NCBI GenBank assembly: GCA_964017185.1
Contig: OZ024874.1
Coordinates: 16,549,957 to 16,613,956 of the forward strand
Length of the DNA stretch: 64,000 bases
Source of the DNA: Rugalucina vietnamica
Taxonomy: Eukaryota > Mollusca > Bivalvia > Lucinida > Lucinidae
Direction of reading: 5' to 3'
Below are positions 1 through 40,341 of the stretch, in pieces (the first letter of the stretch is position 1; each line of letters opens with the position of its first letter). A program made the translations under genes and the position numbers. The notes beneath the pieces were generated by a model, which had not been told where the DNA came from, ran no database searches, and worked only from the letters and a program-made list of their open reading frames with translations.

Positions 1-675
1 TGCATTTTTAATTTCAATTAGTATAGCACAGACGCGTTTGACATTGCTTTGAATTCATACCTGACCATATTTTCTTTGTTGTATGTGATTGGGCTTTTGT
101 TCGTTTTAACACAATAGCTCGGTGCGCCTATGCTTCAATGCATTCGCCGTTCACGTTCTTACTAGAAAGTTTATACTTTCTGTATTCCGCCTTGATACGG
201 AATTAAATATTTTTTCCTATATATTTACAGGTATGATCTATTCATGTTTTGTTAGATAAAGATGAGTAGTTATGTTTAATGTAAATTGTACTTTTCATTA
301 TATTTTGTAAAGCCTGTTTCCTTTGAATTCAATAGAAGCTTTGTGAAATGATGCTTCGTCCAATACATTGTGTGTATTGATTTTGATTGTATTGTTCATG
401 TCCTTTGTGTAAATCGTTTGTATTGATATTTTGTATCATTTACTCATAATGCATTCGCCGTTCACGTTCTTACTAGAAAGTTTATACTTTCTGTATTCCG
501 CCTTGATACGGAATTAAATATTTTTTCCTATATATTTACAGTCATACCATTGTTTAGCCATGATGTCCATCAGATGGCAGCCATATTGTTAATGTAAATA
601 GATTTCATCAACTACTCCTGAGTTTGGGTCTTCAGTTTATCGCCAGGAACCATGAAAGAACCCGAATCGGTTATA
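1..675 (+). repeat. 5' LTR of element 1 (first ~20 bases outside window)
   Basis: Matches 11836-12510 with one substitution. The end is set by where the copies diverge: after GGTTATA at 675 the 5' copy enters the primer-binding site and the 3' copy enters flanking DNA. The presumed LTR ends TGTAAC and GTTATA form an imperfect inverted pair. It contains a 94-bp internal direct duplication (137-230 and 448-541). Confidence 0.93.
137..230 (+). repeat. Intra-LTR 94-bp direct duplication, copy 1 (copy 2 at 448-541)
   Basis: The segment from AATGCATTCGCCG to TATTTACAG occurs twice, seemingly identical, in each LTR (3' LTR copies at 11972-12065 and 12283-12376). Each copy holds two adjacent hairpins: AGAAAG (164-169) with CTTTCT (176-181), and ATTCCG (184-189) with CGGAAT (198-203). 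Function unknown. Its retention in both LTRs shows that it predates this insertion, because both LTRs are copied from one template. Confidence 0.85.
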
Positions 676-676
676 T

Positions 677-690: not shown

Positions 691-3370
691 TAAGATGGTT
701 CCATCGGTCGATTGCCAAAAGATTCAGCAGAAGGAGTATTCGTTGACCTACATTCTTGTGCTTTTTGGATTATGTTGCTATAAATAACAACACGTCTTGA
801 CGTCAGCGACGATGGTCCAATAGATGACAAGGATCTTCCACCTGTTTCTAAATATGGATGTTTATTCTGTGTGTTTCATGATGTCACGTTTCGCTTATCC
901 AATGGATTAATGCGTGTTTGTGTAATCTTGATTTCAATACCATATATGGATAATTCGCTTCTATGGATACCATGACGTACAAGTGATTGTCCAATGGAGT
1001 TGTGTTTCCTGTTCCGCCATGTTTATTTACATAAACATTATAGTGCCAGCCACGTGTGTGCTATCTCGGGGCCCCGTTCTTGTTGCGCTGTTGTTCTTAG
1101 AGAAATGTCAACTGACGGACAGAACGTGTTAGTACCAGTGACTGTAAGGAGAGGAACCAAAACCTTCACCGCACATTAACTGCGCAGTGACATTGTGCTT
1201 CTTGTGTATTTGTGTTTGTGATTTATGTAGTGTTTGTATAGTGGATATTATAGGATATGTTTGTATTTGCCGGTAAGATTTTTGTATTATTTTCATTTTG
1301 TTTGGAGCTATTTTTCAGGCTCCATTTTTCAGTGTAGCATTTTCAGATTCAATAAGGGAGTATTTTTCAGCTCCTACTTTTCAATTTGAAGTAAACAACC
1401 CAAGCTATACGTTTCTTTTGACAGTCATATTACCCCGGGGTTATACTCGTTTTCATTCTAAACGCGAATCGACATACGCGCATACTGTCACAGGAAATGT
1501 TAGTTTGATCAATAAACTGAGTTGATTTTACACAGAAAAATAAGACATCTCAGTTAACAGCTTATTTATCCTATTAGAAAAGCCCAAATTTACGCTTCAT
1601 CGTTGTTCGCCTGATAAATTAGCATTTTGTCAGTGACAAGCGATAATCCCTACCTGTGTGAAAATATTTGTTGGTTCCCGTTCGACAAGTTCAAGCTAAC
1701 ACTATTGTTGACTTAGCCGTTTTCGCATTGTATCGATTTGCAAAGCTGGTTCCCTGCTCCCGATAACTCGCGGAAGTGTTATAAATACCTTTAGAATATA
1801 AAAGTAATTATCGGATGGCCAGGTAGCCTAATCGGTAGAGGCGCTGTTATTGTATTGCAGTAGTAATCCGTTGGTCGCGGGTTCGAATCACAGTAGGAGC
1901 TAAATTTTTTTTCTCGACATATTTTTTTTTCTCAAAATATTATCTCTATTACATTTTTTTTTCTCTACATTTGTTCTTTATTTATTTTTCTACTGATTTC
2001 ACTTTCTAGTATTTATTGTTTTGTACTCCTGTACTTATATTTTGTGTGTTTGAATCTGTGCAAATGTGTTTACATATTTTCTTTTTCAATTTCATTTGAA
2101 TTCATTTATCACTTGATGCTTATGCTATTGTTTCAGCAAATGTTTTGATTGTTGTCTTACCCTCCCTAATTACACGGGTTGTTTTGATTGTTGTCTTTCC
2201 TCCCAAATTATATTTGTGGTACAACTACTGTGTTTTCAAATGTTATCCCCCAGTTTAGATGGTACATATGGTGTAGATATTTAGGTAGGTAGTTACAGTG
2301 AATAAACAAGATAGTGAATAAATAAGATAAGCATATCAGTAAGTTTGCGACTGATTTTGTTTTTCAAGAAGCGCGTTGTTTTGTGCAACAGGATATCAAG
2401 CGTCGACATTTTTTTTTTAATATTCCAGTTACGATACAATAATCTGACTTTTGGTTCTTAACCGGTAGGCAGTTCAGTACATTGCCACTGTCCACATTCA
2501 TTTTGGTTGCTAACTGTACGCATAGCTGCGGTTAGTTTAAAAACGCGTAGTTTTGCTTTGTAGTTAGCAAGCAGAATTTCTTTTCGGTAAAGATCGATCT
2601 GACAACAAAGATCTGATTTGATCATTACACTGTACGACTAGCTGTCATTAAAAAAAAATACCGTCGATCGCTATCAAATTCGTACTGTACGCATTGCTCG
2701 CCGGTTTTGAAATAACCGGTTTTGTTTTGTATATCAGTTGAAGAACTTCTATCAGTGCATCATATTATTAAACCACCATGGCTCATTCACTGCACAATTA
2801 ACATCACCAACAAACAACTAACTTTCACTTCACTGTACGACTAGTTGCTGCTATTGTAAAGACGCATTGTTGTGCTTTGTGTGTGAACAGATTCGATGGA
2901 TTGTGCTTCATGTGTGATTTATTCGAAGGATTAATACGGAGTTTCACTACGTGGTGCTATTCATTGCGGAATATTGTTATTCACTGTACGACTAGACCTC
3001 AAGTCTAAAATTGTGTGTCGATAGTGATACTGTGACTTATATTAAGGCAAATCATATAAAAGCAGAAGTTTTGTGTCGATAGTGATATTGTGACTTTAAA
3101 TTAAGACATAACATACATATTCTTCGGACAATAGTGAATCAGTTTTGAACAACATTTCAGTGTTTGTTTACATTACACTTAGTGGTCGACGTGTGGATAT
3201 ATTCGGTTGAATTCTGGATCTTCGACTGTACATCGTTCTGTGTGCCTGAAAATAGAAAAAGTAATTCATTAGCACATGATTATTAAATTATCCAGAAAGA
3301 GGATAAACTGTGCGATTGTACATAAACTCTTAACAAGATTATATGAGAATTACTTTACGTACACCTCGAC
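691..3370 (+). other. Long untranslated leader of element 1
   Basis: About 2.7 kb between the primer-binding site and gag. It has only short unremarkable open frames in either direction. It contains a tRNA-like segment (1817-1901) and T-rich tracts after it. CACTGTACGACTAG recurs near 2626, 2832 and 2982, and a phrase around GTGTCGATAGTGATA occurs twice (about 3015 and 3072). The leader may carry packaging, promoter or splice signals, but none can be assigned. Confidence 0.6.
1817..1901 (+). other. tRNA-like sequence (pol III A and B boxes) in the leader
   Basis: TAGCCTAATCGG fits the A-box consensus and GGTTCGAATC fits the B box, with spacing like a tRNA carrying a long variable arm or insert. 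The presumed T stem pairs poorly and the acceptor ends do not match, so it is not a good functional tRNA. The 5' end reads GGCCAG, the same as part of the primer-binding site TGGTGGCCAG. It could be a degenerate tRNA, a SINE head, or a fragment related to the primer tRNA. Confidence 0.5.
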
Positions 3371-6300
3371 ATGGATAAATCTAAGGACACGCGAGCGGAC
3401 AGGGCAGCCAGGAGAGCATTGAGAAGTGAAGCTGTAGCAAAAACAGAGCAAGCAGAGGAAGAAAAAGCTATTCAGCAACACTGGGAAGACTTTATAAGAA
3501 AGAAAGCCATGTCCAGTGGACAGAAAAGAATTCAAGACCAACGTGCAGATCACATAAGAAGCTTGGCAAGACAGAGAAGAGACTCAAATGTACAAATGCT
3601 ACATGAAGCTTTGCACAGTGGAGAGGATGAAGAGAGAGAAAAGCAAGAAATGTCTTTAAGACGAACAGAGGGGGAGGATCTCATAAGAAAACAAATTGAA
3701 ATGAGGAAACAGAGAGAAAAGCAAGAAACGTCTTTAAGACGAACAGAAGGGGAGGATCTCATAAGGAAACAAATAGAAGTGAGGAAACAGAGAGAAGCAT
3801 TAGAACGAAAGGAGGAAGAAGATAGTAGAAAGAAGAAAGAAGAAATGAGGAAGCAGAGAGAAGAGGAATTGAGGAAGCAGAAAGAAGATTACTTAAGGAA
3901 GCAAAAAGAAGAGGAGGTATTGAGGAAGCAGAGAGCAGAGGAATTGAGAAGACAGAAAGAAGAGGAGTTAAGAAAGCAGAAAGAAGAGGAATTAAGGAAG
4001 CAAAAAGATGTGGAATTGAAAAAGCAGAAAGAAGAGGAATTGAGAAAGCAGAGGGAAGAGGAATGGAGGAGACAAAAAGAAGATGAATTAAGGAAGCAGA
4101 AAGAAGAGGAATGGAGGAAGCAGAAAGAAGAGGAATTGAGAAAGCAGAGAGATGAAGAAATGAGGAAGCAGAGGGAAGATGAATGGAGGAGACAAAGAGA
4201 AGACGAATTGAAAAAGCAGAAAGAAGCAGAATTGAGGAAACAGAGAGAAGAGGAATGGAGGAAGCAGAAAGAAGAGGAATTGAGAAGGCAGAAGGAAGAG
4301 GAATTGAGAAGACAGAAAGAAGATGAGTTAAGAAAGCAGAAAGAAGAGGAATTGATGAAGCGAAAAGAAGAAGAGGACCGTAGAAAGAAGGAAGAGGAGT
4401 TGCAAAAGCAGAGAGAAGCATTGAAGAGAAAGATGGAAGAGGATCTCAGAAAGAAAAGAGAGGATGAATTGAGGAGACAAAAAGAAGAAGAAGAATTAAA
4501 GCGGAAGAAAGAGATAGAATTGCAAAGACAAATGGAAGAGGAAATTAGAAGAAAGAAAGAGGATGAATTAAACAGACAACGGGAAGAAGCATTAAGGAAA
4601 AAGGAGGAAGAGGACCGCAGAAAGAAGGAAGACGATTTGCGGAGACAAAGAGCAGAGGAAGAATTAAAGCGGAAGAAAGAGATAGAATTGCAAAGACAAA
4701 TGGAAGAGGAAATTAGAAGAAAGAAAGAGGATGAATTAAACAGACAACGGGAAGAAGCATTAAGGAAAAAGGAGGAAGAGGACCGCAGAAAGAAGGAAGA
4801 CGATTTGCGGAGACAAAGAGCAGAGGAAGAATTAAAGCGGAAGAAAGAGATAGAATATCAAAGAGACATAGAAGAGGAAATAAAAAGAAAAGAAGAGGAG
4901 GAATATAATTTACTCATAGAAAAAGAGATAGAGAAACGCATTGAAGAAGCTTTACAAAGGCACATGCAGGACCTCGAGAAAGAAAAGAATGAACAACAAT
5001 TGCAAAGAAACAGAGAGATTGAGTTGAGGCGTCGCCAAGAAGAGGAAATGAAACAACAGTACACTAAGCAGTTGCAAGAAAAGGAACAATTGCTTATGAA
5101 GTACAAAGAGGAATTTTTAAATAGGCAAAATGAAGAAGATGAAAGAAAGATAAGGCTGATAGAAGCTGAACGCGAGCGAGCGATTCAACGACAAAAGGAA
5201 GAGGATGCAGCTGAAAGGAGAAGACAGATAGAAAGAGAGAAAGAAAAGGAAATAAATAGGCGCGTCAGTGAAGCATTACAAAGACGTCAAAGAATTGAAC
5301 ATGAGGAAGAATTGAGACAACAGCAAAAGTATGAGGAGGAACAGAGCTTACTGAGAAAAAATGCTGAAGAGATTCAAGAGTTTTATCAGCGTCAAATCGA
5401 CCAAAAAGAAAACGAATTACAGATGTATAAAGAGGAAGAGAAGAAAAGACGTCTTAGAACAGAAACTGACATAGGAGATTATATACAACGACCAGACACT
5501 GCTCTGAAAGAAACAAGTGAGGCTGATATAAAACAAAGACTAGGGATAGAGATGAAATTTGAAAAGGATAGAAGTACAGGTTATGGGTATGGGGCAATAC
5601 CGAAGCGACCACAAACTCCAGTGATGGAAGAATCGTTCGGAAAAGTTCTTGATCGAGAAATAGTAGACATGGATAGAAGATTGACAAATTTGGGTATACC
5701 AGAGAAGACATCGACTGTTAAGAAATTGTTTAGAAGTGAGCAAACTATGTTACCAAGAATGGAACATAGAATAGATGAGGATGAGAATCTTGTGCATGCT
5801 TTTGGAGAAGATGAAATACAGCTCCATGCATCACGAGATACGTACACCTTTGATCAAGAATGTGACCTTGGATTTGAACCACAGGAACAATCATCTTTTG
5901 GACAAAGAGTGTTTGACACAGAAAAGGACAGCAGCGAAAGAACAGATCTGTATACGTTTGCAGGTGAAGATCTAAAAAAGATCTTTTATGAAGGTTACAA
6001 ATTCGCCATGGAAGATCTGAAGAAAGAAAGAAAGAACTCTGCTTCAAAGATAGAAGAGAGTGAACAATGCAAACAACATAAAGAAGAAAGAGTCCCAATT
6101 ACCCACCCACGCTTAATAGAAATGCCCAAGAAAGAAAGAAATTCTACAGATGTCAATCAGGATGATTACATCAAGTTAGATTGTTTTGACAGAGACTTAG
6201 CCTTAGAAGAAGAGCGTCTGGCAAGGAGAGAACGACTGTTAGAAGAAAGAAAAAGAAGACAAAGAATATTGGAAGAGAAAAGGGAGAAGTTGCGGAAAGC

Positions 6301-7357
6301 AGAGATTGAACTGATTAAGAAAGAGGCCTGGCTGAAAGAGCAAGAAGACACAGCAGACAGACAGCTATTTTACCCGGTCGATGAAAGTGTCCGTCAACAG
6401 GAAGTAGAATTACAGTATAGAGCGGAACAAATTAGGGCTCGGGAGAATGAGATAAACAGAAAAGAAAGCTTATTTCAGCAAGAGTTGAAAAATCTCCAAA
6501 AGTTAAAGCAATCTGAGAAAGCCGATAACAAGAATGGACAAAGTACAACAAAGGAATTTGAAAAGACAGAGGAGAGTTTAAAAGGAAAACCATCTGGTGA
6601 GGAACAATCAAACACAGAGAAGTCATGTTTTACACAAGAAGTAACACAAGCAAGTAAAGAGAAAAGTACAGCTGCTAATGCCAATGATCCACCAAAGTTG
6701 TCACCATTTTCCGGAGAAGAAATAAAGGCTAAGAATATGGCTTCTTATGAAGAGTGGAAGTATGAAGTTGAATATTTGATGCAAGGTGGAAATTATAGTG
6801 AAAGTCAAATGGGCCAGGCTATTCGAAGGTCACTGAGATCACAAGCAAAACGCGTGGTGATGCCATTAGGTGCATCGGCTTCAGTGCAGGAGATCATGAA
6901 GAAGTTGGAATCAGTGTTCGGAAGTATTGCGACAAGAGGAGCTATCATGAGAGAATTTTATACCGCAACTCAACAACAGGATGAATCAGTGTCATTATGG
7001 GGCCTCAGACTCGAAGAAATAATACATCGAGCATTAGAGAAAGGACATATTAGACCTGAAGAGAAGAACGATTTATTGAAGGACATATTCTGGAGAGGAC
7101 TTAGGAGTGAAAAGATGAAGAATGCAACTAGAGTCCACTTTGAATCGATCTCTAATTTCGAACTTTTGAGGAGAGCAGTCAGAGAAGAAGAAAATCAAAT
7201 AGCTATCAATACAGGAATCAAATTGCAACAACAGAGAGTAGAAGACGATCCGAAATATAAGAATTTACAAGACCAAGTAACATCACTACAGAAACAGCTG
7301 AAGAATAAAGAAGAAAAGAAAGAAGAAAAATCAAATCACGGGAATTTAAACGCCTAG
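3371..7357 (+). CDS. Gag polyprotein of element 1, with very long coiled coil and PNMA-like capsid
   Basis: 1328 residues from the ATG at 3371. Residues about 25-700 are an almost uninterrupted charged coiled coil built from R-K-Q-K-E-E-E-L heptad-like repeats. Inside it a 168-nt unit is tandemly duplicated (4493-4660 and 4661-4828, apparently identical; a third partial unit starts at 4829), adding 56 residues in frame. A second charged helix lies at about 942-992. Residues about 1105-1280 (from PPKLSPFSGEE) resemble the capsid domain of Ty3/gypsy Gag and the PNMA/Arc family. No CCHC zinc knuckle is present; the C-terminus is lysine/glutamate-rich. It is much longer than typical Gag proteins of a few hundred residues. 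It presumably forms the particle. It ends two codons after the frameshift heptamer. Confidence 0.92.
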   Translation: MDKSKDTRADRAARRALRSEAVAKTEQAEEEKAIQQHWEDFIRKKAMSSGQKRIQDQRADHIRSLARQRRDSNVQMLHEALHSGEDEEREKQEMSLRRTEGEDLIRKQIEMRKQREKQETSLRRTEGEDLIRKQIEVRKQREALERKEEEDSRKKKEEMRKQREEELRKQKEDYLRKQKEEEVLRKQRAEELRRQKEEELRKQKEEELRKQKDVELKKQKEEELRKQREEEWRRQKEDELRKQKEEEWRKQKEEELRKQRDEEMRKQREDEWRRQREDELKKQKEAELRKQREEEWRKQKEEELRRQKEEELRRQKEDELRKQKEEELMKRKEEEDRRKKEEELQKQREALKRKMEEDLRKKREDELRRQKEEEELKRKKEIELQRQMEEEIRRKKEDELNRQREEALRKKEEEDRRKKEDDLRRQRAEEELKRKKEIELQRQMEEEIRRKKEDELNRQREEALRKKEEEDRRKKEDDLRRQRAEEELKRKKEIEYQRDIEEEIKRKEEEEYNLLIEKEIEKRIEEALQRHMQDLEKEKNEQQLQRNREIELRRRQEEEMKQQYTKQLQEKEQLLMKYKEEFLNRQNEEDERKIRLIEAERERAIQRQKEEDAAERRRQIEREKEKEINRRVSEALQRRQRIEHEEELRQQQKYEEEQSLLRKNAEEIQEFYQRQIDQKENELQMYKEEEKKRRLRTETDIGDYIQRPDTALKETSEADIKQRLGIEMKFEKDRSTGYGYGAIPKRPQTPVMEESFGKVLDREIVDMDRRLTNLGIPEKTSTVKKLFRSEQTMLPRMEHRIDEDENLVHAFGEDEIQLHASRDTYTFDQECDLGFEPQEQSSFGQRVFDTEKDSSERTDLYTFAGEDLKKIFYEGYKFAMEDLKKERKNSASKIEESEQCKQHKEERVPITHPRLIEMPKKERNSTDVNQDDYIKLDCFDRDLALEEERLARRERLLEERKRRQRILEEKREKLRKAEIELIKKEAWLKEQEDTADRQLFYPVDESVRQQEVELQYRAEQIRARENEINRKESLFQQELKNLQKLKQSEKADNKNGQSTTKEFEKTEESLKGKPSGEEQSNTEKSCFTQEVTQASKEKSTAANANDPPKLSPFSGEEIKAKNMASYEEWKYEVEYLMQGGNYSESQMGQAIRRSLRSQAKRVVMPLGASASVQEIMKKLESVFGSIATRGAIMREFYTATQQQDESVSLWGLRLEEIIHRALEKGHIRPEEKNDLLKDIFWRGLRSEKMKNATRVHFESISNFELLRRAVREEENQIAINTGIKLQQQRVEDDPKYKNLQDQVTSLQKQLKNKEEKKEEKSNHGNLNA

Positions 7358-7404
7358 ATGTCTTCAACGCGGGGCTGGCTGAAGACAAACACAAACAAAG
7401 CCCC
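7345..7404 (+). promoter_or_regulatory. -1 programmed ribosomal frameshift signal (slippery site plus H-type pseudoknot)
   Basis: TTTAAAC lies at 7345-7351 in the Gag frame as T TTA AAC, a canonical -1 heptamer. After a 7-nt spacer containing the gag stop, TGTCTTCA (7359-7366) pairs perfectly with TGAAGACA (7380-7387). Within the loop GGGGCT (7371-7376) is complementary to AGCCCC (7399-7404), forming stem 2 of an H-type pseudoknot, with an A-rich 11-nt loop at 7388-7398. Pol is open in exactly the -1 frame and overlaps gag over 7309-7357. Element 2 has the same arrangement at 23973-24032 with a different stem sequence. Confidence 0.9.
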
Positions 7405-10400
7405 AATATAAACGAAAGAGGGCAATTCTCCAGATTAGTTGGCCATTCAAATGAGTCCATAATTTCTTTTTGCGGCCAAGAAACAACGGCTCTCATTGAC
7501 AGTGGATCGATGGTTTCAACAGTATCACAAGAATTCTTTGAGTCAATCATCCCTCGTCCACAATCTGTTGATATCAAAGAGTTAAAACTTTCAATTCAGG
7601 GAGCGGATGGGAATGATATACCATACAATGATTGCATATGGGCGCCCATTGAAGTCCCATTTTGTGATACAACGTTGTGGGTTCTTGTGTTAGTTGTGCC
7701 AAATACAAGATTCAATCAAAAAGTGCCTGTTATTGTTGGAACAAACGCAATATCACGTGCACAGAACCACTGCAATGGACAAGAAGTGCCTACTGAATGG
7801 AAAAATGCTTTCCTTAGTTTACAGAAAGGTTTTGTTGGTGTTGTCAGGTCAACAAATAGAAAGGATATTGAGATCAAACCTTATGAAACTGTGACTTTAT
7901 CAGGATTCACCAGGAAGAAAGGCAATATAGAAACAGCTGTCACAGAACAAACAGAGGGAGCATCAGAAAGAATTGGAGTCTGTCCACGAGTAGTGTCTCT
8001 TCAGTCACCATCCCGGAATCAAAGGATACCAGTTAGAGTGTTCAACATCTCGGCAAAGACTATAACTATTAAACCTCGGACAACGCTATGTGAACTTCAA
8101 GAAGTAAAAGTTTTAAGAAACTTTGATCCCTCAGAACAGGAACAGACAGATGAACCGGTTCATGTAGCAAGCCAATGTAGTAGCCAAGAAGAGAAAGAAA
8201 TAGAATTACCTGAAGGAGTTGACTTGGATACATCAAAGCTAACAGAGGAACAAAAGAAAGATGCAACAGATCTGTTTCATAAGTGGAAACACATTTTTTC
8301 CACAGGAATTACTGATATAGGACAAACTGACCTGGTTAAACACCACATAAAATTGACAAATGAGGAGCCTTTTAAAGAACCTTTTCGGCGGATACCACCA
8401 AACCTCATTCAGGAAGTGCGGGAACATCTTCGGGAAATGTTGCAAGCTGGAGCCATTAGAGAGAGTGAAAGTCCGTTTTCTTCTAACGTCGTCATTGTTA
8501 GAAAAAAAGACGGTACTATCAGATTCTGCGTGGACTTTCGGAAACTGAATAAACGGACAGTTTTGGATGCATATGCCATTCCACGTGTGGAGGATTCACT
8601 TCATCTTCTGGCAGGCTCGAAATATTTCTCAAAGTTGGATCTCAGAAGCGGGTACTGGCAGGTCGAACTGGAAGAGAATGATAAGTGTAAGACAGCGTTC
8701 CAAGTGGGCAACCTGGGCTTTTACGAGTTTAATCGCATGCCGTTTGGTTTGTGCAACGCTCCAGCGACTTTTCAACGTTTGATGGAAAGATGCATGGGCG
8801 ATATGAATCTGCGAGATTGCTTGATTTATCTCGACGACATCATCATCTTTTCGTCGAACTTTGAGGAGCATCTGGAGAAGTTGCAAGCGGTGTTTCAACG
8901 GCTGAGTAATAACCATCTGAAACTAAAAGGAAGCAAGTGTGAATTCTTTAAGAGCCAGGTTTCTTACTTGGGGCATATTGTCTCGGAGGAAGGAATCCGA
9001 ACTGACCCATCAAAGATAGAAGTAGTGAAGACCTGGCCAGTACCCAAATCAGTGAAGGATGTTCGGCAATTTTTGGGATTTACGGGCTACTACAGAAGGT
9101 TCATCGAGGGATACAGTTCAATAGCCCGCCCCCTTAACGACCTGCTTATCGGAAACAGTCCCAAGGAGAAGCAAAAGAAAGGCAGAAAGCCACGGTCTAC
9201 AGGAGCAGCTTTCATATGGGAAACAGCGCAACAAGAAGCTTTTGACACTCTAATCAACAAATTGATCAACCCTCCAGTGTTAGCATACGCTGACTGCAGA
9301 CAACCATTCAAGCTACACACGGATGCTTCATCGTCTGGACTCGGGGCAGTGTTGTATCAAAATCAGGAGGGAATCGACCGAGTCATAGCTTACGCCAGCC
9401 GGAGCCTCAAGCCAGCAGAACGAAATTACCCTGCTCACAAGATGGAATTCCTGGCACTTAAATGGGCGGTCACGGACAAGTTCCACGACTATTTGTATGG
9501 GTCAAAGTTCGAAGTCCTTACAGACAACAATCCATTGACATACATCTTGACTACGGCTAAGTTAGATGCCACAGGACAACGATGGGTTGCTGCTCTGTCC
9601 AATTACGATTTTACCCTTACCTATAGAAGTGGAGCTCAGAACGTAGATGCTGACACCCTCTCAAGAAGACCAGAAATTACTGGACAAGAATGTCGTTTCC
9701 CTGAAGTACTGAGAGCTTTATCGGAAGGCGTTTCCACATCACAAGTTCCGATCGTGCATACTCTTTCACTTCAAGCATCGGCCACAGAGGAAGAAGAAGA
9801 AAAGATACCAGAAGATCTTCTTCAATCAACTGCTTTGACAGCACATGACTGGAAGAAAGCCCAACAAAAGGATCGCTCCATCTCGAAGATTATTCGCTGG
9901 ATCCAGGATGGTCTTCGACCTTCAGCTCAGCTGGTTGAGACAGAAAATATTGATCAACGGTTTCTTCGAGATTGGGACAAGTTGATTCTCATAGATGACA
10001 TTCTTCATCGACGAGTCACTATGGACGAAGGAAGTTGCGATCAGCTTGTCATCCCGCGTCAACTATATCGTGACATCTTCCAGTCATACCACGACGATCT
10101 CGGGCATCAGGGCAGAGACAGAACGTTGTCACTGATGAAAAGAAGATTCTTTTGGCCAGGAATGGACAGTTTTGTGGAATCCAACATACAGAAATGTGGT
10201 CGATGTATACGGCGGAAGATCCTACCAAAAAGAGCAGCTGATTTAGTCAGAATAACATCTACGGCTCCCATGGAACTAGTATGCATCGATTACCTCAAGC
10301 TTGAAAGATCAAAGGGAGGATATGAAAACATACTCGTCATCACGGACCATTTCACCCGATATGCGTACGCAGTTCCCACAAGGAACCAGACTGCCAGAAC

Positions 10401-11406
10401 CACAGCCCGTGTTCTCTTGGATAACTTCTTTCTACATTATGGATTTCCAGCCAAGCTTCATAGCGACCAAGGCGCTAATTTCGAATCCAGAGTGATTAAG
10501 AGTCTGTGCAAGTTGACAGGGATAAAGAAGACAAGGACTACGCCGTACCATCCAATGGGCAATGGCATGGTAGAGCGGTTTAACCGCACTTTGCTGAATA
10601 TGATGGGGACCCTGACAGACAAACAAAAGTCAGATTGGAAAGCATTTGTCCCTACCCTCTGCCATGCCTACAACGCTGCAAAACATGACAGTACAGGCCA
10701 AGTTCCATTCTATCTGATGTACGGTCGCCATCCGAGATTGGCTGTTGACGCATTTCTGGGCCTCAAGTCTTCAGAACCTAGTGTCACCTCGCATGCGGAC
10801 TATGTGAAGAAGCTTAAGTCTCGACTCGCTTTCGCCTATGATCTCGCATCCAAAGAGGCGCGGAAGAATGCAGACAGACACAAAGTCATGTATGATATGC
10901 GAGTCCGCCATGCTGCACTAGAACCTGGAGATAGAGTTCTTGTGAGAAAAACTGGTGAGAGGGGAAAACACAAGATTGGTGACGAGTGGGAGCATACCGC
11001 CTATATTGTAGACCGTCAACCAATAGAGGGAATTCCTGTGTTTGATGTCCATAAGGAAAACGATCTTACAGGAAAAATCAGAACTCTGCACAGGAACATG
11101 CTTCTGCCGTTCATGGGCCTTCCAAGTGAACTTCCACCAGAGACAAAAACCCACAAACAACCTGTACCAGATATTCCAGAGAGTTCTTCATCCGAAGACA
11201 GTACGTCTGACTCAGACGACTCTGATTCTTCATTCATTGAGGAAACAGAAATCGATGAGCAACCTCCGGAATCAACAACTCACCGAAAGAACGGTCGTCG
11301 AAGAGGTACTAGGATCAGAAGAGCACCTGACCGCTTGCAGGTAGGCCAAATGGTCAATGGGGTTTACGAGTTTTACGTTCCAGAGAGTATGGTAACGAAG
11401 CTGTAA
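7351..11406 (+). CDS. Pol polyprotein of element 1: protease, RT, RNase H, integrase
   Basis: Open from 7309 and expected to be entered at 7351 by -1 frameshifting. The first ATG in frame (7510) is too late, because it lies after the protease active site D-S-G (7498-7506). Next come the reverse transcriptase with FCVDFRKLN and the catalytic YLDD (8827-8838), then RNase H starting with HTDAS (Asp at 9322). The integrase has an HHCC zinc domain (about 10085-10215). Its core has catalytic Asp at 10288, Asp at 10465 and Glu at 10573, a D,D(35)E spacing. A GPY/F-like C-terminal region and an acidic serine-rich tail follow. I see no chromodomain. No internal stop or frameshift is present, so it appears intact. 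It would copy and integrate the element. Confidence 0.95.
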   Translation, partial: RLDVFNAGLAEDKHKQSPNINERGQFSRLVGHSNESIISFCGQETTALIDSGSMVSTVSQEFFESIIPRPQSVDIKELKLSIQGADGNDIPYNDCIWAPIEVPFCDTTLWVLVLVVPNTRFNQKVPVIVGTNAISRAQNHCNGQEVPTEWKNAFLSLQKGFVGVVRSTNRKDIEIKPYETVTLSGFTRKKGNIETAVTEQTEGASERIGVCPRVVSLQSPSRNQRIPVRVFNISAKTITIKPRTTLCELQEVKVLRNFDPSEQEQTDEPVHVASQCSSQEEKEIELPEGVDLDTSKLTEEQKKDATDLFHKWKHIFSTGITDIGQTDLVKHHIKLTNEEPFKEPFRRIPPNLIQEVREHLREMLQAGAIRESESPFSSNVVIVRKKDGTIRFCVDFRKLNKRTVLDAYAIPRVEDSLHLLAGSKYFSKLDLRSGYWQVELEENDKCKTAFQVGNLGFYEFNRMPFGLCNAPATFQRLMERCMGDMNLRDCLIYLDDIIIFSSNFEEHLEKLQAVFQRLSNNHLKLKGSKCEFFKSQVSYLGHIVSEEGIRTDPSKIEVVKTWPVPKSVKDVRQFLGFTGYYRRFIEGYSSIARPLNDLLIGNSPKEKQKKGRKPRSTGAAFIWETAQQEAFDTLINKLINPPVLAYADCRQPFKLHTDASSSGLGAVLYQNQEGIDRVIAYASRSLKPAERNYPAHKMEFLALKWAVTDKFHDYLYGSKFEVLTDNNPLTYILTTAKLDATGQRWVAALSNYDFTLTYRSGAQNVDADTLSRRPEITGQECRFPEVLRALSEGVSTSQVPIVHTLSLQASATEEEEEKIPEDLLQSTALTAHDWKKAQQKDRSISKIIRWIQDGLRPSAQLVETENIDQRFLRDWDKLILIDDILHRRVTMDEGSCDQLVIPRQLYRDIFQSYHDDLGHQGRDRTLSLMKRRFFWPGMDSFVESNIQKCGRCIRRKILPKRAADLVRITSTAPMELVCIDYLKLERSKGGYENILVITDHFTRYAYAVPTRNQTARTTARVLLDNFFLHYGFPAKLHSDQGANFESRVIKSLCKLTGIKKTRTTPYHPMGNGMVERFNRTLLNMMGTLTDKQKSDWKAFVPTLCHAYNAAKHDSTGQVPFYLMYGRHPRLAVDAFLGLKSSEPSVTSHADYVKKLKSRLAFAYDLASKEARKNADRHKVMYDMRVRHAALEPGDRVLVRKTGERGKHKIGDEWEHTAYIVDRQPIEGIPVFDVHKENDLTGKIRTLHRNMLLPFMGLPSELPPETKTHKQPVPDIPESSSSEDSTSDSDDSDSSFIEETEIDEQPPESTTHRKNGRRRGTRIRRAPDRLQVGQMVNGVYEFYVPESMVTKL

Positions 11407-11815: not shown

Positions 11816-12510
11816 TGTAACAGGGCGTACGTCTGTGCATTTTTAATTTCAATTAGTATAGCACAGACGCGTTTGACATTGCTTTGAATTCATACCTGAC
11901 CATATTTTCTTTGTTGTATGTGATTGGGCTTTTGTTCGTTTTAACACAATAGCTCGGTGCGCCTATGCTTCAATGCATTCGCCGTTCACGTTCTTACTAG
12001 AAAGTTTATACTTTCTGTATTCCGCCTTGATACGGAATTAAATATTTTTTCCTATATATTTACAGGTATGATCTATTCATGTTTTGTTAGATAAAGATGA
12101 GTAGTTATGTTTAATGTAAATTGTACTTTTCATTATATTTTGTAAAGCCTGTTTCCTTTGAATTCAATAGACGCTTTGTGAAATGATGCTTCGTCCAATA
12201 CATTGTGTGTATTGATTTTGATTGTATTGTTCATGTCCTTTGTGTAAATCGTTTGTATTGATATTTTGTATCATTTACTCATAATGCATTCGCCGTTCAC
12301 GTTCTTACTAGAAAGTTTATACTTTCTGTATTCCGCCTTGATACGGAATTAAATATTTTTTCCTATATATTTACAGTCATACCATTGTTTAGCCATGATG
12401 TCCATCAGATGGCAGCCATATTGTTAATGTAAATAGATTTCATCAACTACTCCTGAGTTTGGGTCTTCAGTTTATCGCCAGGAACCATGAAAGAACCCGA
12501 ATCGGTTATA
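11816..12510 (+). repeat. 3' LTR of element 1
   Basis: 695 bp from TGTAACAG to GGTTATA. Positions 11836-12510 repeat 1-675 with one substitution (12172 C against 337 A). The internal 94-bp duplication is at 11972-12065 and 12283-12376. The following five bases, TGTTT, would be the right copy of a target duplication. Confidence 0.93.
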
Positions 12511-13144
12511 TGTTTGTATATCATGATTGCTTCTGTTTGTATTGTCATTCATTATGCAATTTGTATGTATGTATTTCATGTCTGTGTGTTTTTTGCTTAT
12601 GCGTTTATTATTGCTCATTGTATATATGTCATATTTAATGACTTACTTGCTTACTTACTTACTTACTTACTTACTTACTACTGCAGAGTGCAAGCATAAG
12701 AGTAATTTCTTTCATACGCTCGTATGTTTCTTGTTTATCTTTACTGTTAGCATGTTTTTTCAAGCCTTTTTCCAGTATTTGCCTGTTATTACATGCACAA
12801 GTTTGTATATTCTTTCTTCAGATGAATGATGAAGAACAATACAATTAAAGACATACCTGTTGTCCATGGACTCAACTGATTGTCAATATTGAATGTGCAA
12901 ACTCCATTATACAGTCACACACGTGTACATGCAGCTATATCAGATGGACATAAACCGCATGGTATCAAATTGCTGGTTTGAATCAAATTTGGTAAATTGA
13001 TACAACTCCAAGAATGTTTGTATATATACTAAACAAAACAACCACAACTATTAGTTTTCTACATGTATGTTTCTGAACAAGCTTTGATACTGTCAGGTAC
13101 AGATGTATTTTTTCCGAGTTTGTAAGGAATCCTGCGGCAAAATG

Positions 13145-15972: not shown

Positions 15973-16711
15973 TCGCGGGATTTTGACACGAATTCAACCG
16001 CGCATTTAAGGTATTACACCCATAATAATTCCGTTAATAATCGGCTAATATCGACAAACATCGACATAAACCGTAACCCCATTCGGCAAAGCGCGCCATT
16101 CTCCGCCGTACTTAAAATAGAATCGGATATGATGTCAAGCGCGCGAGATTGTCGCGTCATGTTACTAAAAATAGTAACAGTCGGTGATTCCTGGGTATTT
16201 TTCCGGCGGAAGAAAATGGCGTCGATGGTAAACCAGCACCGAGATCAACGGGGAAGATTCTCAAAATCCTCCGTTAAAAAAAGAAAAAAAACTGAAAACA
16301 CACATACAGATCAAACATAATTATTCATCGGGACATTTATGTGAAGGAAATGCATGCGTAAATGCGACATGTGCGTTGCACGACCCGATTCCACCAACGG
16401 CCAGCAGAGAGGGATGGAAGTTCGGTAGACGCGTTGTGGAGTTAGATCATTTATTGTCCTCCCTCAAGTCGTGTTCTAAATGTAGATTGGGGCCTGTACC
16501 TCTCACATATTTCAACATTGTTGGGGAATTGAAAAAGGGACTTAGCGGGTATATTTATGTGAAGTGTACAAACAGTGATTGTGGTGCAGTTAACAGGGTC
16601 CCTTATGGAAAAACACACAGGAAGAAGTCAACACGGGGTATGCCATCCTTTGCTGTGAATACAAAGCTAGGAACAGGTAACGTATGATTGTTATTTTTTA
16701 ATGCACTAGTC

Positions 16712-18076: not shown

Positions 18077-18543
18077 GATTGTATTATTCAAGAATGTGTA
18101 TTTATTATATTTTCAGCAATGGTAGACAGCATTGGTGGACCAGTGAGAGTGAACAACTTGTTGAGTACCCTCAATATACCCGAAATTCAGTCTAAGAAAC
18201 AACCAATCTAAGTATGACATCTTGATTTTTGTTTTGCTTTGATTAAAAGAAGAAAAAAAAAAACAATACACATATGTGTATATGCAAAAACCAAAGTTTC
18301 AAGCCTCAATAGTCATCACTTATTACTGCAGAGCACAAATTGTGTAAGACCTGGTCAGAAGCCTCAAATACATAATATCAAATACATGCTATCTATTCAC
18401 ATGGATGAAGGCTTGAAAGCTATGTTGTGTGTTACAACACTTAGAGTATAAAGGTATGTGGAGCTGATTCCACTTATCTTATTTTTGCAATGTATGTAAG
18501 TTTATTTTTCCGCTCATATGGCAATATATTGATTGTTTTCCAG

Positions 18544-19367
18544 TTCGAGGTGGACAGATGCCCCATATCACTCAGATAGCAGCTACTGAACCGGGATCTA
18601 AATCGATTTTTAATGGATACATCATACCAACAGTCCCAATATCCCTGGAGGCACAACAGGTCACTGGAATTGTAAAAACGGGATCAAATACCACGACTGT
18701 CCATGGCCAGCCAGTTCCATCTTCAAAGATCCAACCTTCATTGGAACAATTTATACAATGGTTGAAGAAGTATCCCAACATAATTCTTGTTGCTCATAAT
18801 GGGCGGAGGTTCGATTTCCCAGTGTTCTTATCTGCTGTTAGAAGTTGTGGTTTTATAGATATATTGTTTCAAATTGTGTGTGGTTTCATTGATTCTCTGA
18901 CAGTGTTTCGCAAGAAATATCCTGGCAGGTCCTGCTACAAGCAAGAAGATCTTGCGAAAGATTTATTAAATTGTACTTACAATGCTCACAATGCCATTGG
19001 GGATGTAGAGACTCTGGGCAGTTTGATAGCCAATACAAATATGTCTAGTAAAAACCTACTAGAACACAGCTTTTCACCACAGGCGTCATACAATTCTATG
19101 CTGTTCAACCGGGAAAAGAACAAGAATGTGGGTACCCTTGACATTCTTGTTGCAAAAGGAGTGTGTAAGCGTGCAACTACAGAGAATATTGCCGGCTCGG
19201 GATTACGACTGTCTCATCTAAAGACGATATATGAGCGAGATGGCGAGGATGGACTGCTGAATACGTTCACCGAAAAGAACTCTGAAGGCCAAGCCAGAGT
19301 AACTGCTTGTAAAAGAACTTTGGAAAGTGTTATTCCAAAAATGGCAGAGTATTTCAAAGACAACTAA
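18544..19367 (+). CDS. DnaQ-like (DEDDh) 3'-5' exonuclease domain exon, first motif missing
   Basis: Preceded by an acceptor (TTTTCCAG) and open to TAA at 19365. The ORF gives RGGQMPHITQIAA, then ALVAHN-type ExoII (VAHNGRRFDFPVF) and ExoIII with the catalytic His and Asp in NAHNAIGDVETL. The C-terminal tail has SGLRLSHLKTIYERDGEDGL. The ExoI motif (D-x-E) should lie in an upstream exon just before RGGQM, but none is visible, so the enzyme here is incomplete or that exon is lost. It lies within the TTAA-flanked transposon, downstream of the transposase exons. It could be cargo or part of the same gene. It would degrade DNA or RNA from the 3' end if complete. Confidence 0.7.
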
Positions 19368-23011: not shown

Positions 23012-23982
23012 AAGACAGAAATCATGTTGAAAGAAGAGAAATCAGTTCCTCCAAAGACAGAGAGAAAATTTTGACTTTTGATGTCTCAGACATGACTACC
23101 ATCAAAGACAGAAATACAGCAACTGTAGCAACTAACACTGGGCCTATGTTACAGGATTCCACAAACAACTTCCCGAAGATGTCTGTTTTCTCTGGCGAGG
23201 ATCCAAAACCAAAAAGTGAAGCCTCGTTTGAGGAATGGGCCTATGAAGTTAAATACCTAAGTAGGAGATATTCTAAGGCTGGTATGGGTCAGGTAATAAG
23301 GAAAGCATTGAAGGGTCACGCAAAGCAAGCGATACTTCCAATGGGTCCTGATGCAACAGTTTCCCAGATTATTCATAGGTAAGAAGGCGTCTATGGAAAT
23401 GTGGCAACCCCCATGAGTATTCTTCAGGAGTTTTATACTGTATACCAGAAACAGGACGAATCCGTTAGTACCTGGAGTATACGATTGGAAGATATACTCC
23501 AAAGAGCTGTAGATAAAGGCCAAGTTAGACGTTCAGATAAGGACGCATTGCTGAGAGATAAGTTCTGGCGACCGCGCAGAAGTGAGAAACTGAAGATGGC
23601 TACCATACTGCACTTCAGTACAAGTGAAACTTTCGATCTCCTAAGAGAGAAAGTAAGAACAGAAGAGCTAGCAATTCAACCTAGTTCGGCAATGCAACAG
23701 GAGGCCATTAGAACAGAAAGACCAGCTACAAAAGACATCCCTGAATCGAAAGCTGACTTGATTCTAGAAAGACTCACACAGTTAGAGAAGAAAGTAAATA
23801 ACAGAAAACCGAGGTGGAAATGGAAGAATAAAACAGACAATGAAGATGGTGAAGAAACTCTTAATCAAAATGCTGGAGGGAGTCACAGTCAACAGAATCA
23901 TAATCCGAAACAGCAACATCAACAACAGCCAGAACAGAATCCATCAGATAGAGCAAGAAACCAACAACAGGTTTTAAACTAG
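22990..23982 (+). pseudogene. Gag of element 2, capsid part with a nonsense codon
   Basis: Resembles the element 1 capsid from FSGEDPKPKSEASFEEW on. A TAA at 23380-23382 replaces the Leu found in element 1 (K-L-E against R-stop-E). The frame then continues through QEFYTVYQKQDESVSTWS to the end at 23982. The C-terminal part is Gln/Asn-rich and, like element 1, has no CCHC knuckle. It ends exactly after the frameshift heptamer. Confidence 0.85.
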
Positions 23983-24032
23983 AAGGCGTCTCCATCGAGG
24001 GGCAGACTGGGGACAGACGCCTTTCCAGCCCC
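23973..24032 (+). promoter_or_regulatory. -1 frameshift signal of element 2 (conserved, covarying)
   Basis: T TTA AAC at 23973-23979 in the Gag frame, directly followed by the stop TAG. AAGGCGTCT (23983-23991) pairs perfectly with AGACGCCTT (24015-24023). GGGGC (23999-24003) can pair with GCCCC (24028-24032) as stem 2. Protein similarity resumes in the -1 frame (NIKGFFDKFVGHSNE against NINERGQFSRLVGHSNE in element 1). Confidence 0.85.
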
Positions 24033-27000
24033 AATATCAAAGGATTCTTTGACAAGTTTGTTGGTCACTCCAATGAAACACATGTTGGATTCTGTGGCAG
24101 GGAAACAAATGCATTAGTGGATAGCGGATCACAGATAACTACGGTTACTGAGGAATTCTATTACACCTTATCTCCTAGACCGCGTCTGTTTTCATTAAAG
24201 GAAATTGGGCTCGATCTTAATATTCAGGGAGCAGAAGGACATGATATTCCGTATATCGGCTGTATACTAGCCCAAGTTAAAGTGCCATTCTTGCCTAACA
24301 CTGAAATAGAAGTGGGAGCTTTAGTAGTGCCTTTGACTGATTATGGGCAACATGTCCCAGTGATCATTGGTACAAATGTGATCGGCCGATGTAGGAATAA
24401 ATGTAAGGAGGACACCACTGTGCCAGATAATTGGAAAGATGCATTTGTTGCTTGCCAAACAGAATCAGCTGGAGTTGTCAAATCTACCAACAAAGTGACC
24501 ATCAGGCTTAAACCAAATGTGTCTATTATTCTGTCAGGGATGGTGAAGAACTGTAGGCAGATTGTTAGTGCTGTGACAGAGACCACGAAAGGGGCATCAA
24601 GCAGGATAGGCGTTTGTCCCCGGGTTGTCAAACTTGATAAGATTGGAAAGAATCAAAGAGTGCCAGTGAAGATATATAATGTATCAGCAAGGAAATAGAG
24701 ATAACTCCTAAAACAGCACTTTGTGAACTCCATGAAGTCAAAGTATTAAGACATCTGGACTTGGATACACCAGGAGAAAATGTGTAAAGCTGTCAACAAA
24801 CGGTTCAGGAGTCAACACTGCCAGAGGACAAAGAATTACCAGCCGGGATAGATCTGACTGACTCTGCAGTGACAGAAGAACAAAGACAGGAACTGACGCA
24901 ATTTCTGATTAGATGGAAGGGAATATTTTCTAAAGGGCTCACTGACCTTGGAAACTGCGACAAATTGAAACACCGGATCAAATTAAACGATGATAAACCG
25001 TTCAAGGATCCTCATCGTCGAATCCCAGCTGCGCTGTTCCAGGAAGTACGTGAACACCTGCAAGAAATGCTCGACGCCGGTGCTATACGACCATGCAAAA
25101 GTCCCTATTCATCTAATGTGGTGATTGTGAGAAAGAAAGACGGCACAATAAGATTCTGTGTGGACTTCCGGAAACTAAGCAACAGAACAGTTAAAGATGC
25201 CTATGCCATTCCCAGAACAGAAGAAACTCTCCATCTGCTTGCCGGTGCCAAGTATTTTACCAAGCTGGATCTCCGGAGCGGGTACTGGCAAGTGGAGATA
25301 GAGGAAGAAGACAAGCCGAAGACAGCCTTCCAAGTAGGGACCCTCGGTTTTTATGAATTTCACAGGAATCCCTTCTGTTTATGCAACGCCCCAGCGACTT
25401 TCCAGCGTCTCATGGAGCTGTGTATGGGCGACATGAATCTGCGTGAATGCTTAGTTTATCTGGACGACATCATTTTTTTCTCGACGACTTTTGAGGAACA
25501 TATCGACAGCCTACAAGAGTTTTCACCAGACTACAAGAGTACAACCTTAAACTGAAGGCAACCAAGTGTGAATTCATGAAATCGGAGGTCACATACTTGG
25601 GTCATATAGTATCTCAGGATGGAATCAGAACGGATCCAGAAAAGACAGCTGCAATTGAAAACTGGCCAGAACCAAAGACAGTGAAAGATGTGCGCGCTTT
25701 TCTTGGATTTACCGGATACTACCGGCATTTCATTAAGAATTATGCCAGGATAGCAAGGCCGCTAAACGACCTTTTTGTTGGGCACAGCACTGCCAAGAAT
25801 AACAGACTATCAAAGAGGCCGAGAGCACAGAAAACACCATTCATATGGACAGACGCCCAGCAGATGGCATTCGAGACACTCAAGGAGAAACTGACGAACC
25901 CTCAAGTCCTTGCCTACGCTGATTACCGTCTGCCATTCAAACTTCATACAGAAGCCTCTACGGCAGGCCTTGGAGCCGTGCTCTACCAACATCAGGATGG
26001 CCAAGACAGAGTTGTAAGCTATGCCAGTAGGAGCCTCAAACCGTCGGAGAAAAATTACCCGGCTCATAAATTGGAGTTCTTGGCTCTGAAATGGTCTGTT
26101 ACCGAGAAGTTCCACGATTACCTTTATGGAACCAACTTCGAGGTATTCACAGATAACAATCCACTGACCTACGTGTTTACAACTGCTAAGTTGGATGCGA
26201 CAGGACACAGATGGCTTGCCGAGCTCTCCAATTACAACTACAGTCTCACCTACCGAAGTGGTAAGAAGAATATTGACGCAGACGGGCTATCAAGACTCAA
26301 TGAGAACACAGCCACAACGTCAGTCTTTCCAGAAGTCCTGAAAGCTATATGCAATACAGTTGTTGCACAGGATGCGGACACAGAACCGTTAGTTGACAGC
26401 CTTGCACCTCCTGACATCACACAATACATCGGAAAGGATGAATCTGAAAATATACAAGCAGAGACAATTTCACATACAGCACTTACCTCGCAGGACTGGC
26501 AACGGGCCCAAGCTGCTGATGATAACATCAACTTTGTAGTCGACGCTGTACTCACAGGAGTAAAGCCTACAACAGAACAGGTTAAACGCAACAACATAGA
26601 TGCTGGATACTTACCTGATTGGGACAAGTACTTGTTGAACGACGGCGTCCTCTACAAAACAGAGACTATCAATGGTGAGGAATTCAGCAGACTAGTCCTT
26701 CCAGATGCCTTCAGAGACAAAGTGTTCAAGTCGTACCATGACGACTTAGGTCACCAGGGTCGAGACAGAACTGCTTCGCTGATCAAGCAACGCTTTTTCT
26801 GGCCCTATATGTATAAGTTCATTCGCGAACGCGTACAGTCGTGTGGACGCTGTATACGCCGGAAAACAGCACCCGTAAAGGCCGCGCATCTCGTCAATAT
26901 AACGTCGTCCGCGCCGATGGAACTTGTCTGCATAGACTACCTCTCTTTGGAAAGATCGAAGGGCGGGTTTGAGAATATCCTGGTCATAACAGACCACTTC

Positions 27001-27583
27001 AGTCGTTATGCCCAGGCTATTCCGACAAGAAATCAAACGGCTCAAACAACTGCCCGTGCATTGTTTGAGAATTTTTTTCTGCATTACGGTTTTCCGGCAA
27101 AGTTACACAGCGACAAAGGTGCAAACTTTGAATCCAAAGTTATCAAGAAGCTGTGTGAAGTTGCCGGAATACAGAAAACCCGCACCACTCCCTACCACCC
27201 AATGGGGAATGGTATGGTTGAACGATTCAACCATACCCTACTGAACATGCTTGGTACGATGAGCGAGAAACAAAAGACTGATTGGAAAGCACATGTGCCT
27301 TCCTTTACTCCCGCCTACAATGCTGCTGTGCATGAGAGTACGGGTTTCTCGCCGTTTTACCTCATGTTCGGGCGCCATCCCCGATTTGCGATAGATGCGT
27401 TCCTTGGGATTCGATCTTCCGAAGAAAGAAAGTTTCATCAAGATTATGTAGACAAGTTGAAGGACCGCATGGCAGATGCCTACCAGAACGCGAGTGAAGA
27501 AGCCAGACAGAAGGGTAGGAAATACAAGCGGTACTACGATCACGGTGTTCGCTATTCGGTGTTGGAACCTGGTGACCGAGTTC
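23979..27583 (+). pseudogene. Pol of element 2, broken and 3'-truncated
   Basis: The protease has D-S-G just after 24117. Frame breaks occur near 24690 (indel) and about 25520 (indel), with a stop at about 24784. RT has YLDDIIFF near 25457. In RNase H the motif HTDAS of element 1 reads HTEAS. The integrase zinc domain and core are intact (Asp at 27112, Glu at 27220, again D,D(35)E). Similarity to element 1 stops inside LEPGDRVL near 27583, where unrelated inverted- and direct-repeat DNA begins, so the C-terminus and 3' LTR are gone. No LTR is recognisable at the 5' side either. This is an old, dead relative of element 1. Confidence 0.9.
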
Positions 27584-27720
27584 TGTGTAGTCAATTTTAC
27601 CAGAACATGATGAAATGATGATGATTAGCAGCAACTTCAATCCATAGCGATGTCTGCAATTATAATAATATATCCAAAATATATTATGGTACCAAAAATG
27701 GTAAAATTGACTACACAGAA
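27581..27720. repeat. 22-bp inverted repeat pair at the element 2 break
   Basis: TTCTGTGTAGTCAATTTTAC (27581-27602) is the reverse complement of the stretch ending in CTACACAGAA (27699-27720). It marks the left edge of foreign DNA that truncates pol, possibly a small terminal-inverted-repeat element. Confidence 0.6.
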
Positions 27721-39524: not shown

Positions 39525-40341
39525 TCTGATTACTTAAGCCTTAATTAGTTCTTTGTTTTTCTCTGGCTAGTTGGATTGTTCAGGTTGGTCTAAATATCAA
39601 AAATACACGTCAAATAACGTCTTTGAGCGAATTATTTAACAGTTCAAATATCTGAGAAAAGGATAAGAGACGTTTGTGTATAGCAACATTTCAGCAGCAT
39701 AATACCATTTAAATAAATGAACATTTGATGTGATGATCCTCCAAATATCTTTGTCGGACGCTCCTATGGTTGATGTGTTTAACCTTTGACTTAAGAGTTT
39801 CTGATTGCTTTCGGAAGGTCAACATTTTTCTTCAGTGAGAAGGCAATTGAACGGAAGGTGAGTTTCGTTCATAAAGTGTCGAAAGTGCGTCGTGAGTAAA
39901 AATGAGAGCCTGGCTATGAAAGAAACCGATTATTACGTACTTGGCTTCCCTTTTTGCGATATTGTCTGATGTGTTGAAAATATAGTGTTTATTATGATTA
40001 TTATGAAAAACGTCGTTTGTGATGTTCATTTATTTATTTTTTTTTTCAGAATAATCAGCGATTACAGGCAGGTTACAAACAGTTTGAAGCTTTGCCATTT
40101 CTCTTCCGTTAGTAGCAGGTTATCTCAGGACAGCTAACTGGTATTGAGTACGTTTGTATATTCATTCACCTACACTAAGGTCAAGTGGAGCACTTGTTTT
40201 CATCAGCTTGAAACAACTATGACGTGTAAATATGACGCTAAACCTCATTGATATTTACAAGTTTTCTATGTGAATTAGTGGTGTGTTGTACATGTATGTT
40301 TGATCAACACATGTACGCCCACCGTTATATTGTCAACTTAA
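39525..40341. other. Upstream region of the GPCR gene, no gene seen
   Basis: Only short unremarkable frames. It should hold the promoter of the minus-strand GPCR, but I can identify no specific element. Confidence 0.5.

Follow-up and report, generated by a model that had tools for sequence, protein, structure and literature searches.

The closest described counterparts of the locus analyzed here are the mammalian genes PNMA3 (Ma3) and PNMA5, Metavirus-derived genes with a PNMA capsid that use a -1 frameshift with a classical heptamer and a classical H-type pseudoknot; frameshifting is given as about 20% for Ma3 and apparently similar for Ma5 (PMC5009743). PEG10, also Ty3/Gypsy-derived, enters its protease by a -1 frameshift (PMC11011659), for which a pseudoknot is described as the stimulator (PMC5009743), but it belongs to another Gag lineage (SIRH/RTL) and is a domesticated gene. 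Among animal LTR retrotransposons, a 2003 survey placed pol in the -1 frame in 28 of 51, many with classical heptamers (cited in PMC5009743), and the accessible part of the citing paper mentions no covariation-supported pseudoknot for those elements. The elements described below differ from PNMA3 and PNMA5 in that they still carry pol, and their likeness to these genes is one of description. Coronavirus and arterivirus frameshift sites likewise combine a UUUAAAC or GUUAAAC heptamer with a pseudoknot; these are RNA viruses, and the likeness is again descriptive, with no homology claimed. The mechanism as such is already known, including from mammalian PNMA3 and PNMA5, and the present case is a further one with unusually strong comparative support. 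In the literature searched, with most subscription papers outside its scope, we found no work combining retrotransposon, frameshift, pseudoknot and covariation, and none combining ribosomal frameshifting, gypsy, pseudoknot and bivalve.

The window, i.e., the whole stretch of 64,000 nucleotides from Rugalucina vietnamica that was analyzed, contains two related retrotransposons, both on the + strand, with the following parts:

1..676, + strand: element 1 5' LTR, cut by the window start, 99.85% identity with 11836-12511
3347..7357, + strand: element 1 gag frame, with a PNMA-type capsid domain in its C-terminal part
7309..11406, + strand: element 1 pol, in the -1 frame relative to gag, encoding the protease start, RT, RNase H and integrase
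11836..12511, + strand: element 1 3' LTR, the portion matching 1-676
23383..23982, + strand: element 2 gag, last open piece, with a PNMA match
23952..24698, + strand: element 2 pol, first open piece

Past this piece, element 2 pol lies in two other frames, open at 24788-25555 and 25495-27618, and as it is thereby spread over three frames, this copy is broken. An LTR pair was looked for around element 2 and none was found, as opposed to the 99.85% pair of element 1. Piece by piece, the pol proteins of the two elements are 49-66% identical. RT, RNase H and integrase domains were identified in pol, the domain order taken to define Metaviridae being protease, RT, RNase H, integrase. The protease gave weak Pfam matches only (Asp_protease_2 in 24 of 34, with E up to 0.1 and 3e-5 at best), and a D-S/T-G motif, which we take to be the protease motif, is present. 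The PNMA capsid domain (PF14893) was recognized in element 2 Gag (E 8.4e-8); for element 1, the domain scan of the full-length gag returned no PNMA hit, and scanning the C-terminal part alone gave 4e-15. Element 1 and five other copies all carry this domain (6/6, E 3.4e-11 or better). Judged by their predicted pol domains, the elements are of the Ty3/Gypsy type (Metaviridae), with a PNMA-type Gag. Element 1 gag also contains, at 3790-4878, an array with a 24-nt period, in which a 225-nt unit recurs in 30 overlapping copies, mostly shifted by 24 nt from one to the next, and which codes for a long charged stretch of the protein.

Elsewhere in the window lie a gene piece matching an exonuclease (RNase_T) domain and a PML C-terminal domain (18468-19364, + strand), a rhodopsin-type GPCR reading frame (38481-39530, - strand), and two more reverse transcriptase frames together with a Mutator-like transposase piece (31968-33794, - strand; 41654-42130, - strand; 16232-16684, + strand).

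The gag-pol junctions of the two elements comprise the following features:

23973..23979, + strand: TTTAAAC, slippery heptamer of element 2, read T TTA AAC in the gag frame
23980..23982, + strand: element 2 gag stop codon TAG, directly 3' of the heptamer
23983..23991, + strand: AAGGCGTCT, 5' arm of the stem proposed for element 2 by the sequence-only reading, a competing helix of element 2's clade only
23988..23994, + strand: element 2 stem 1, 5' arm GTCTCCA, homologous to element 1 stem 1
23999..24003, + strand: element 2 stem 2, 5' arm GGGGC
24008..24014, + strand: element 2 stem 1, 3' arm TGGGGAC
24015..24023, + strand: AGACGCCTT, 3' arm of the proposed stem
24028..24032, + strand: element 2 stem 2, 3' arm GCCCC
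7345..7351, + strand: element 1 slippery heptamer TTTAAAC, with the gag stop one codon past it
7359..7366, + strand: element 1 stem 1, 5' arm TGTCTTCA
7371..7376, + strand: element 1 stem 2, 5' arm GGGGCT
7380..7387, + strand: element 1 stem 1, 3' arm TGAAGACA
7399..7404, + strand: element 1 stem 2, 3' arm AGCCCC

At both junctions (23973-24032 and 7345-7404), the heptamer is phased T TTA AAC in the gag frame and pol overlaps in -1. Each junction spans 60 nt, counted from where the heptamer starts to where stem 2 ends, so that the two can be aligned gaplessly; 39 of the 60 positions are identical. Counted from the heptamer, element 1 has stem 1 at offsets 14-21/35-42 and stem 2 at 26-30/55-59, and stem 2 of element 2 occupies the same offsets; stem 1 begins 7 nt past the heptamer in element 1 and 8 nt past it in element 2. 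The sequence-only reading had described an identical heptamer, an identical GGGGC/GCCCC stem 2 and, in element 2, the pairing AAGGCGTCT/AGACGCCTT; all of these are present, the last being perfectly complementary over 9 bp. As stem 2 is identical in both window elements, it is no proof by itself. The TGTCTTCA octamer of element 1 stem 1 also occurs five times at 55799-56092 (- strand), spaced by 71-73 nt, which suggests a tandem repeat and inflates the count of this octamer in the window.

In dinucleotide shuffles of element 1, a Watson-Crick stem as long as its 8 bp arose in 7 of 2000, and in those of element 2's 53 nt a stem as long as AAGGCGTCT/AGACGCCTT arose in 1 of 2000. H-type pseudoknots, defined here by stems of at least 8 and at least 5 bp with stem 1 starting 3-9 nt past the heptamer, appeared in 0 of 1000 shuffles of element 1 and 3 of 1000 of element 2. 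Neither junction matched any Rfam family up to E=1.

The sequence-only reading further proposed that AAGGCGTCT/AGACGCCTT is element 1's stem 1 with its bases exchanged on both sides while pairing was kept, i.e., covariation. This does not hold at the level of homology, as the arms lie at offsets 10-18/42-50, whereas element 1 stem 1 occupies columns 14-21/35-42. In the homologous columns, element 2 has GTCTCCA/TGGGGAC, where 7 of the 8 element 1 pairs are kept, with one two-sided change (T-A to C-G), one one-sided change (T-G) and one pair lost (C-A). The two helices overlap at GTCT (23988-23991) and are mutually exclusive. As a plain hairpin, the AAGGCGTCT/AGACGCCTT stem is the more stable (-11.7 vs. 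-8.6 kcal/mol), and it is part of element 2's minimum-energy fold. Elements 1 and 2 alone are too little to decide between the two stems.

The pol start was then searched against the window's own genome (1.09 Gb, 47 contigs), giving at least 150 matches, a lower bound because scoring covered the best candidates only. Junction regions were obtained for 146 of the 150, the other 4 (match starting past residue 57) being left out. A heptamer is present at the junction in 139 of the 146 copies: TTTAAAC in 74, GTTAAAC in 42, GGGAAAC in 9, AAAAAAC in 5, and nine variant or damaged forms, which were added to the search pattern only after being seen. On first inspection, seven copies lacked a usable heptamer (L005, L025, L069, L103, L109, L113 and L117), and in nine with two candidate motifs (L008, L009, L016, L057, L071, L072, L073, L116 and L125) the one at the conserved place was chosen. 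The gag frame closes within 11 codons of the heptamer's second base in all 139 junctions, at 2-4 codons in 132 of them, and in one junction the stop lies inside the heptamer; in 114 of the 139, gag is open upstream (for 60 codons or as far as the edge) and pol stays open throughout the rest of the obtained DNA. Relatives were also searched for in collections of viral contigs and of genome contigs, and none was confirmed.

Columns 1-44 from the heptamer start are gapless across the family, and the stem 1 columns therefore required no structural fitting. Covariation was evaluated on 35 cluster representatives, with element 2 representing its own cluster; the spacer between heptamer and stem 1 is 5-8 nt in 31 of the 35, within the roughly 5-9 nt expected of such signals. 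In this alignment, the element 1 pseudoknot is paired in 89.9% of 455 cells, and 11 of its 13 pairs have changed on both sides somewhere; the AAGGCGTCT/AGACGCCTT stem is paired in 44.8% of cells. Stem 2, uninformative between the window elements, does covary in the family: 96.6% of its cells are paired and four of its five pairs show two-sided changes (e.g., GGGATC/GATCCC and GGAGC/GCTCC). Among 69 distinct blocks, the six core pairs of stem 1 (offsets 15-20 with 41-36) form in 56-68, and the nine pairs of AAGGCGTCT/AGACGCCTT in 8-51. Hence, the earlier claim that covariation reveals selected pairing stands for 23988-23994/24008-24014 and for the family, and fails for the stem on which it was made. 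The lesson is that, in a two-sequence comparison, the longer and more stable complementary stretch need not be the homologous stem.

The covariation of the element 1 structure amounts to 0.478, against at most 0.176 for slid versions of it, and no column shuffle was as high (0/500); out of five measures compared with such shuffles, four were reached by 0/500 and the fifth, further pair types, by 17/500. In addition, columns were simulated independently on a tree derived from the pol DNA farther downstream, each column retaining its number of changes; like the shuffles, this null is not codon-aware. With stems 1 and 2 together, 0 of 1000 simulations reached the observed pairing or covariation, also after removal of both window elements: the simulated covariation averaged 0.216 and never exceeded 0.312, and without the window elements the observed 0.486 compares to a simulated maximum of 0.370. 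A structure-blind G-test over 1659 column pairs yielded no single pair at E<0.05, the best one (columns 16-42) being at 0.1 and the second-best non-structural, while its summed score for the structure was 139.5 vs. a null maximum of 30.2 (300 simulations of a null that is not codon-aware). Moreover, where elements 1 and 2 share a residue (M and W omitted), the codon is identical for 8 of 9 such residues at the junction, as against 278 of 697 in the rest of pol (binomial P 0.004; matched by 3 of 689 other runs of nine). Two of the nine junction codons are the heptamer's own; as gag ends 0-1 codon past the heptamer, gag coding is no explanation for the remaining identical ones. Overall, the predicted pair of interleaved stems, an H-type pseudoknot, is supported by covariation.

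Groups outside the alignment were examined in addition. L069 and L117 had been taken as heptamer-less exceptions, until the surrounding 2.4-2.6 kb revealed the heptamer and these stems at a site lying more upstream, where GGTCTACC/GGTAGACC occupy precisely offsets 14-21/35-42; the exception was therefore withdrawn and this clade used as a held-out group. A second genome search gave 30 loci, with L161, L167-169 (CCCAAAC), L170-175 plus L178, and L177 as new groups. L149-L160, being 95-100% identical to the query, were assigned to the already aligned L144 clade, and others were set aside (L163-L166, in the L141 clade; L176, equal to L089; L157 and L162, which gave no junction). The held-out test used one representative from each of five groups, not all of them remote from the alignment: L161 is kin to the L144 clade, with 65% to the query from that clade, and L170 seemingly to the L141 clade. 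Their stem 1 is paired in 36 of 40 cells, while 12 other offsets give 11-18 of 40. As to stem 2, four of the five groups have a 5/5 partner and L177 has 4/5, a weaker test because the 3' arm was free over 26 downstream places.

Some members deviate from this structure. Stem 1 has one C-A mismatch within the helix in L077 and mismatches in its middle in L125; in L089, L092, L100, L115 and L130 it is one base out of register (offset sum 55, not 56), with 9-14 bp; and stem 2 of L131 is poorly paired in the aligned columns. In L025, close to element 2, a T-rich site replaces the usual heptamer and the gag stop lies inside it; the stems are kept and pol has a long open frame. L026, kin of L022/L023, has two stops in the matched pol start and an unpaired stem 1 3' arm, as expected after loss of selection.

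Taken together, the site is very probably a -1 frameshift signal with an H-type pseudoknot, in which element 2 has 23988-23994/24008-24014 as stem 1. The folded RNA signal probably makes ribosomes slip one base back, thereby yielding the retrotransposon enzymes. Most ribosomes would terminate at the gag stop, directly past the heptamer in element 2 and one codon later in element 1, while some would stall at the pseudoknot, 8 nt past the heptamer in element 2 and 7 nt in element 1. In these stalled ribosomes, the two tRNAs would move back by one base, from T TTA AAC to TTT AAA, giving pol as a Gag-Pol fusion. The pseudoknot of element 2 would then consist of 23988-23994/24008-24014 and 23999-24003/24028-24032, in element 1's columns. 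Frameshifting itself, its efficiency and the Gag to Gag-Pol ratio are what we infer from the sequence.

We then weighed whether AAGGCGTCT/AGACGCCTT could instead have replaced stem 1 in element 2 and form part of the functional pseudoknot there. Its perfect 9 bp, rarely equaled in shuffles, and its greater stability as a plain hairpin speak for it, and so does its core (offsets 12-16/44-48), kept in 14/14 distinct sequences (33 copies) of element 2's clade. Nevertheless, this core varies only by G-U changes, with no two-sided change among the 33 copies, and the full 9 bp occur in element 2's subfamily only. When the tree-based simulations covered all 35 rows, only 6 of 1000 equaled the stem in pairing and 3 in covariation, numbers that rose to 414 and 288 of 1000 without element 2's close relatives, and its signal is therefore clade-limited. 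It would also leave only 4 nt between its 3' arm and stem 2, and a spacer of 3 nt as compared to 8 nt with the homologous stem 1 and to a typical 6-9 (PMC3835772); such a short spacer is perhaps not fatal, as the same source argues that pairs beside the spacer can open in RSV and ALV. By contrast, within this same clade the homologous stem 1 has a pair changed on both sides in L041, and L110, whose heptamer is damaged too, is the only copy in which it is broken. We thus consider a functional replacement of stem 1 highly improbable. Somewhat better placed, although still unlikely, is that both helices are used in turn: the outer one would form first and be opened by the ribosome, upon which GTCT would move to the inner stem 1 with its 8-nt spacing. 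The mutual exclusion through GTCT, the outer core kept in 33 copies and the low simulation counts with all rows agree with such an exchange, for which HIV-1 offers a likeness, with two mutually exclusive pseudoknots, one of them with a 0-1 nt spacer, and an exchange between them having been proposed (PMC3835772). The HIV-1 sequence is unrelated. The outer core lacks two-sided changes in a closely related clade, where the codons (Gly, Lys/Arg, Arg) could account for its conservation, and its signal is absent outside that clade.

The pseudoknot with the homologous stem 1 also has to be set against simpler readings. If stem 1 alone were the stimulator and stem 2 a coincidence, the shortness of the latter would be explained, as would the simulations that reach it when taken alone: 1 (pairing) and 3 (covariation) of 1000 with all 35 rows, and 5 of 1000 for covariation without the clade in shifted register; the 4/5 pairs of L177 point the same way. 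Such a simple stem-loop is nonetheless very improbable, given the nearly complete pairing of stem 2, its two-sided changes at four of five pairs, and the fact that, once both window elements are left out, 0 of 1000 simulations attain its pairing or its covariation. It could further be argued that no RNA structure exists, and that the sequence match reflects protein-coding conservation or chance, since the region codes for the pol start, with some residues common to both elements, and the tree-based null is blind to codons. We find this scarcely credible in view of the 0/1000 simulations, the two-sided changes at 11/13 pairs, the pairing in held-out groups and the excess of identical codons.

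The sequence-only reading had also placed the selection of the signal before the death of element 2, and this part was borne out. Over 3.03 kb, L019-L021 share 95-96% identity with element 2, and over a further 0.36 kb 86-92%; in these copies, the pol frame stays open for 1396 codons, and the junction, starting at the heptamer, is that of element 2. The signal of element 2 was thus inherited from a lineage still holding open-pol copies.

Across the family, five heptamers (TTTAAAC, GTTAAAC, GGGAAAC, AAAAAAC and CCCAAAC) are exchanged, and the geometry, with stem 1 at 14-21/35-42 and stem 2 opening at 26, is kept despite 11 of 13 changed pairs. On this basis we tentatively suggest that a pseudoknot of fixed geometry may be ancestral to PNMA-Gag metaviruses, and that the PNMA3 and PNMA5 signals could be its domesticated descendants. 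A single genome thus supplies dozens of divergent natural versions of one frameshift pseudoknot, a comparative set for the constraint on spacer, stem and loop lengths and on the heptamer, with a bearing on the origin of the frameshift sites of mammalian PNMA genes.
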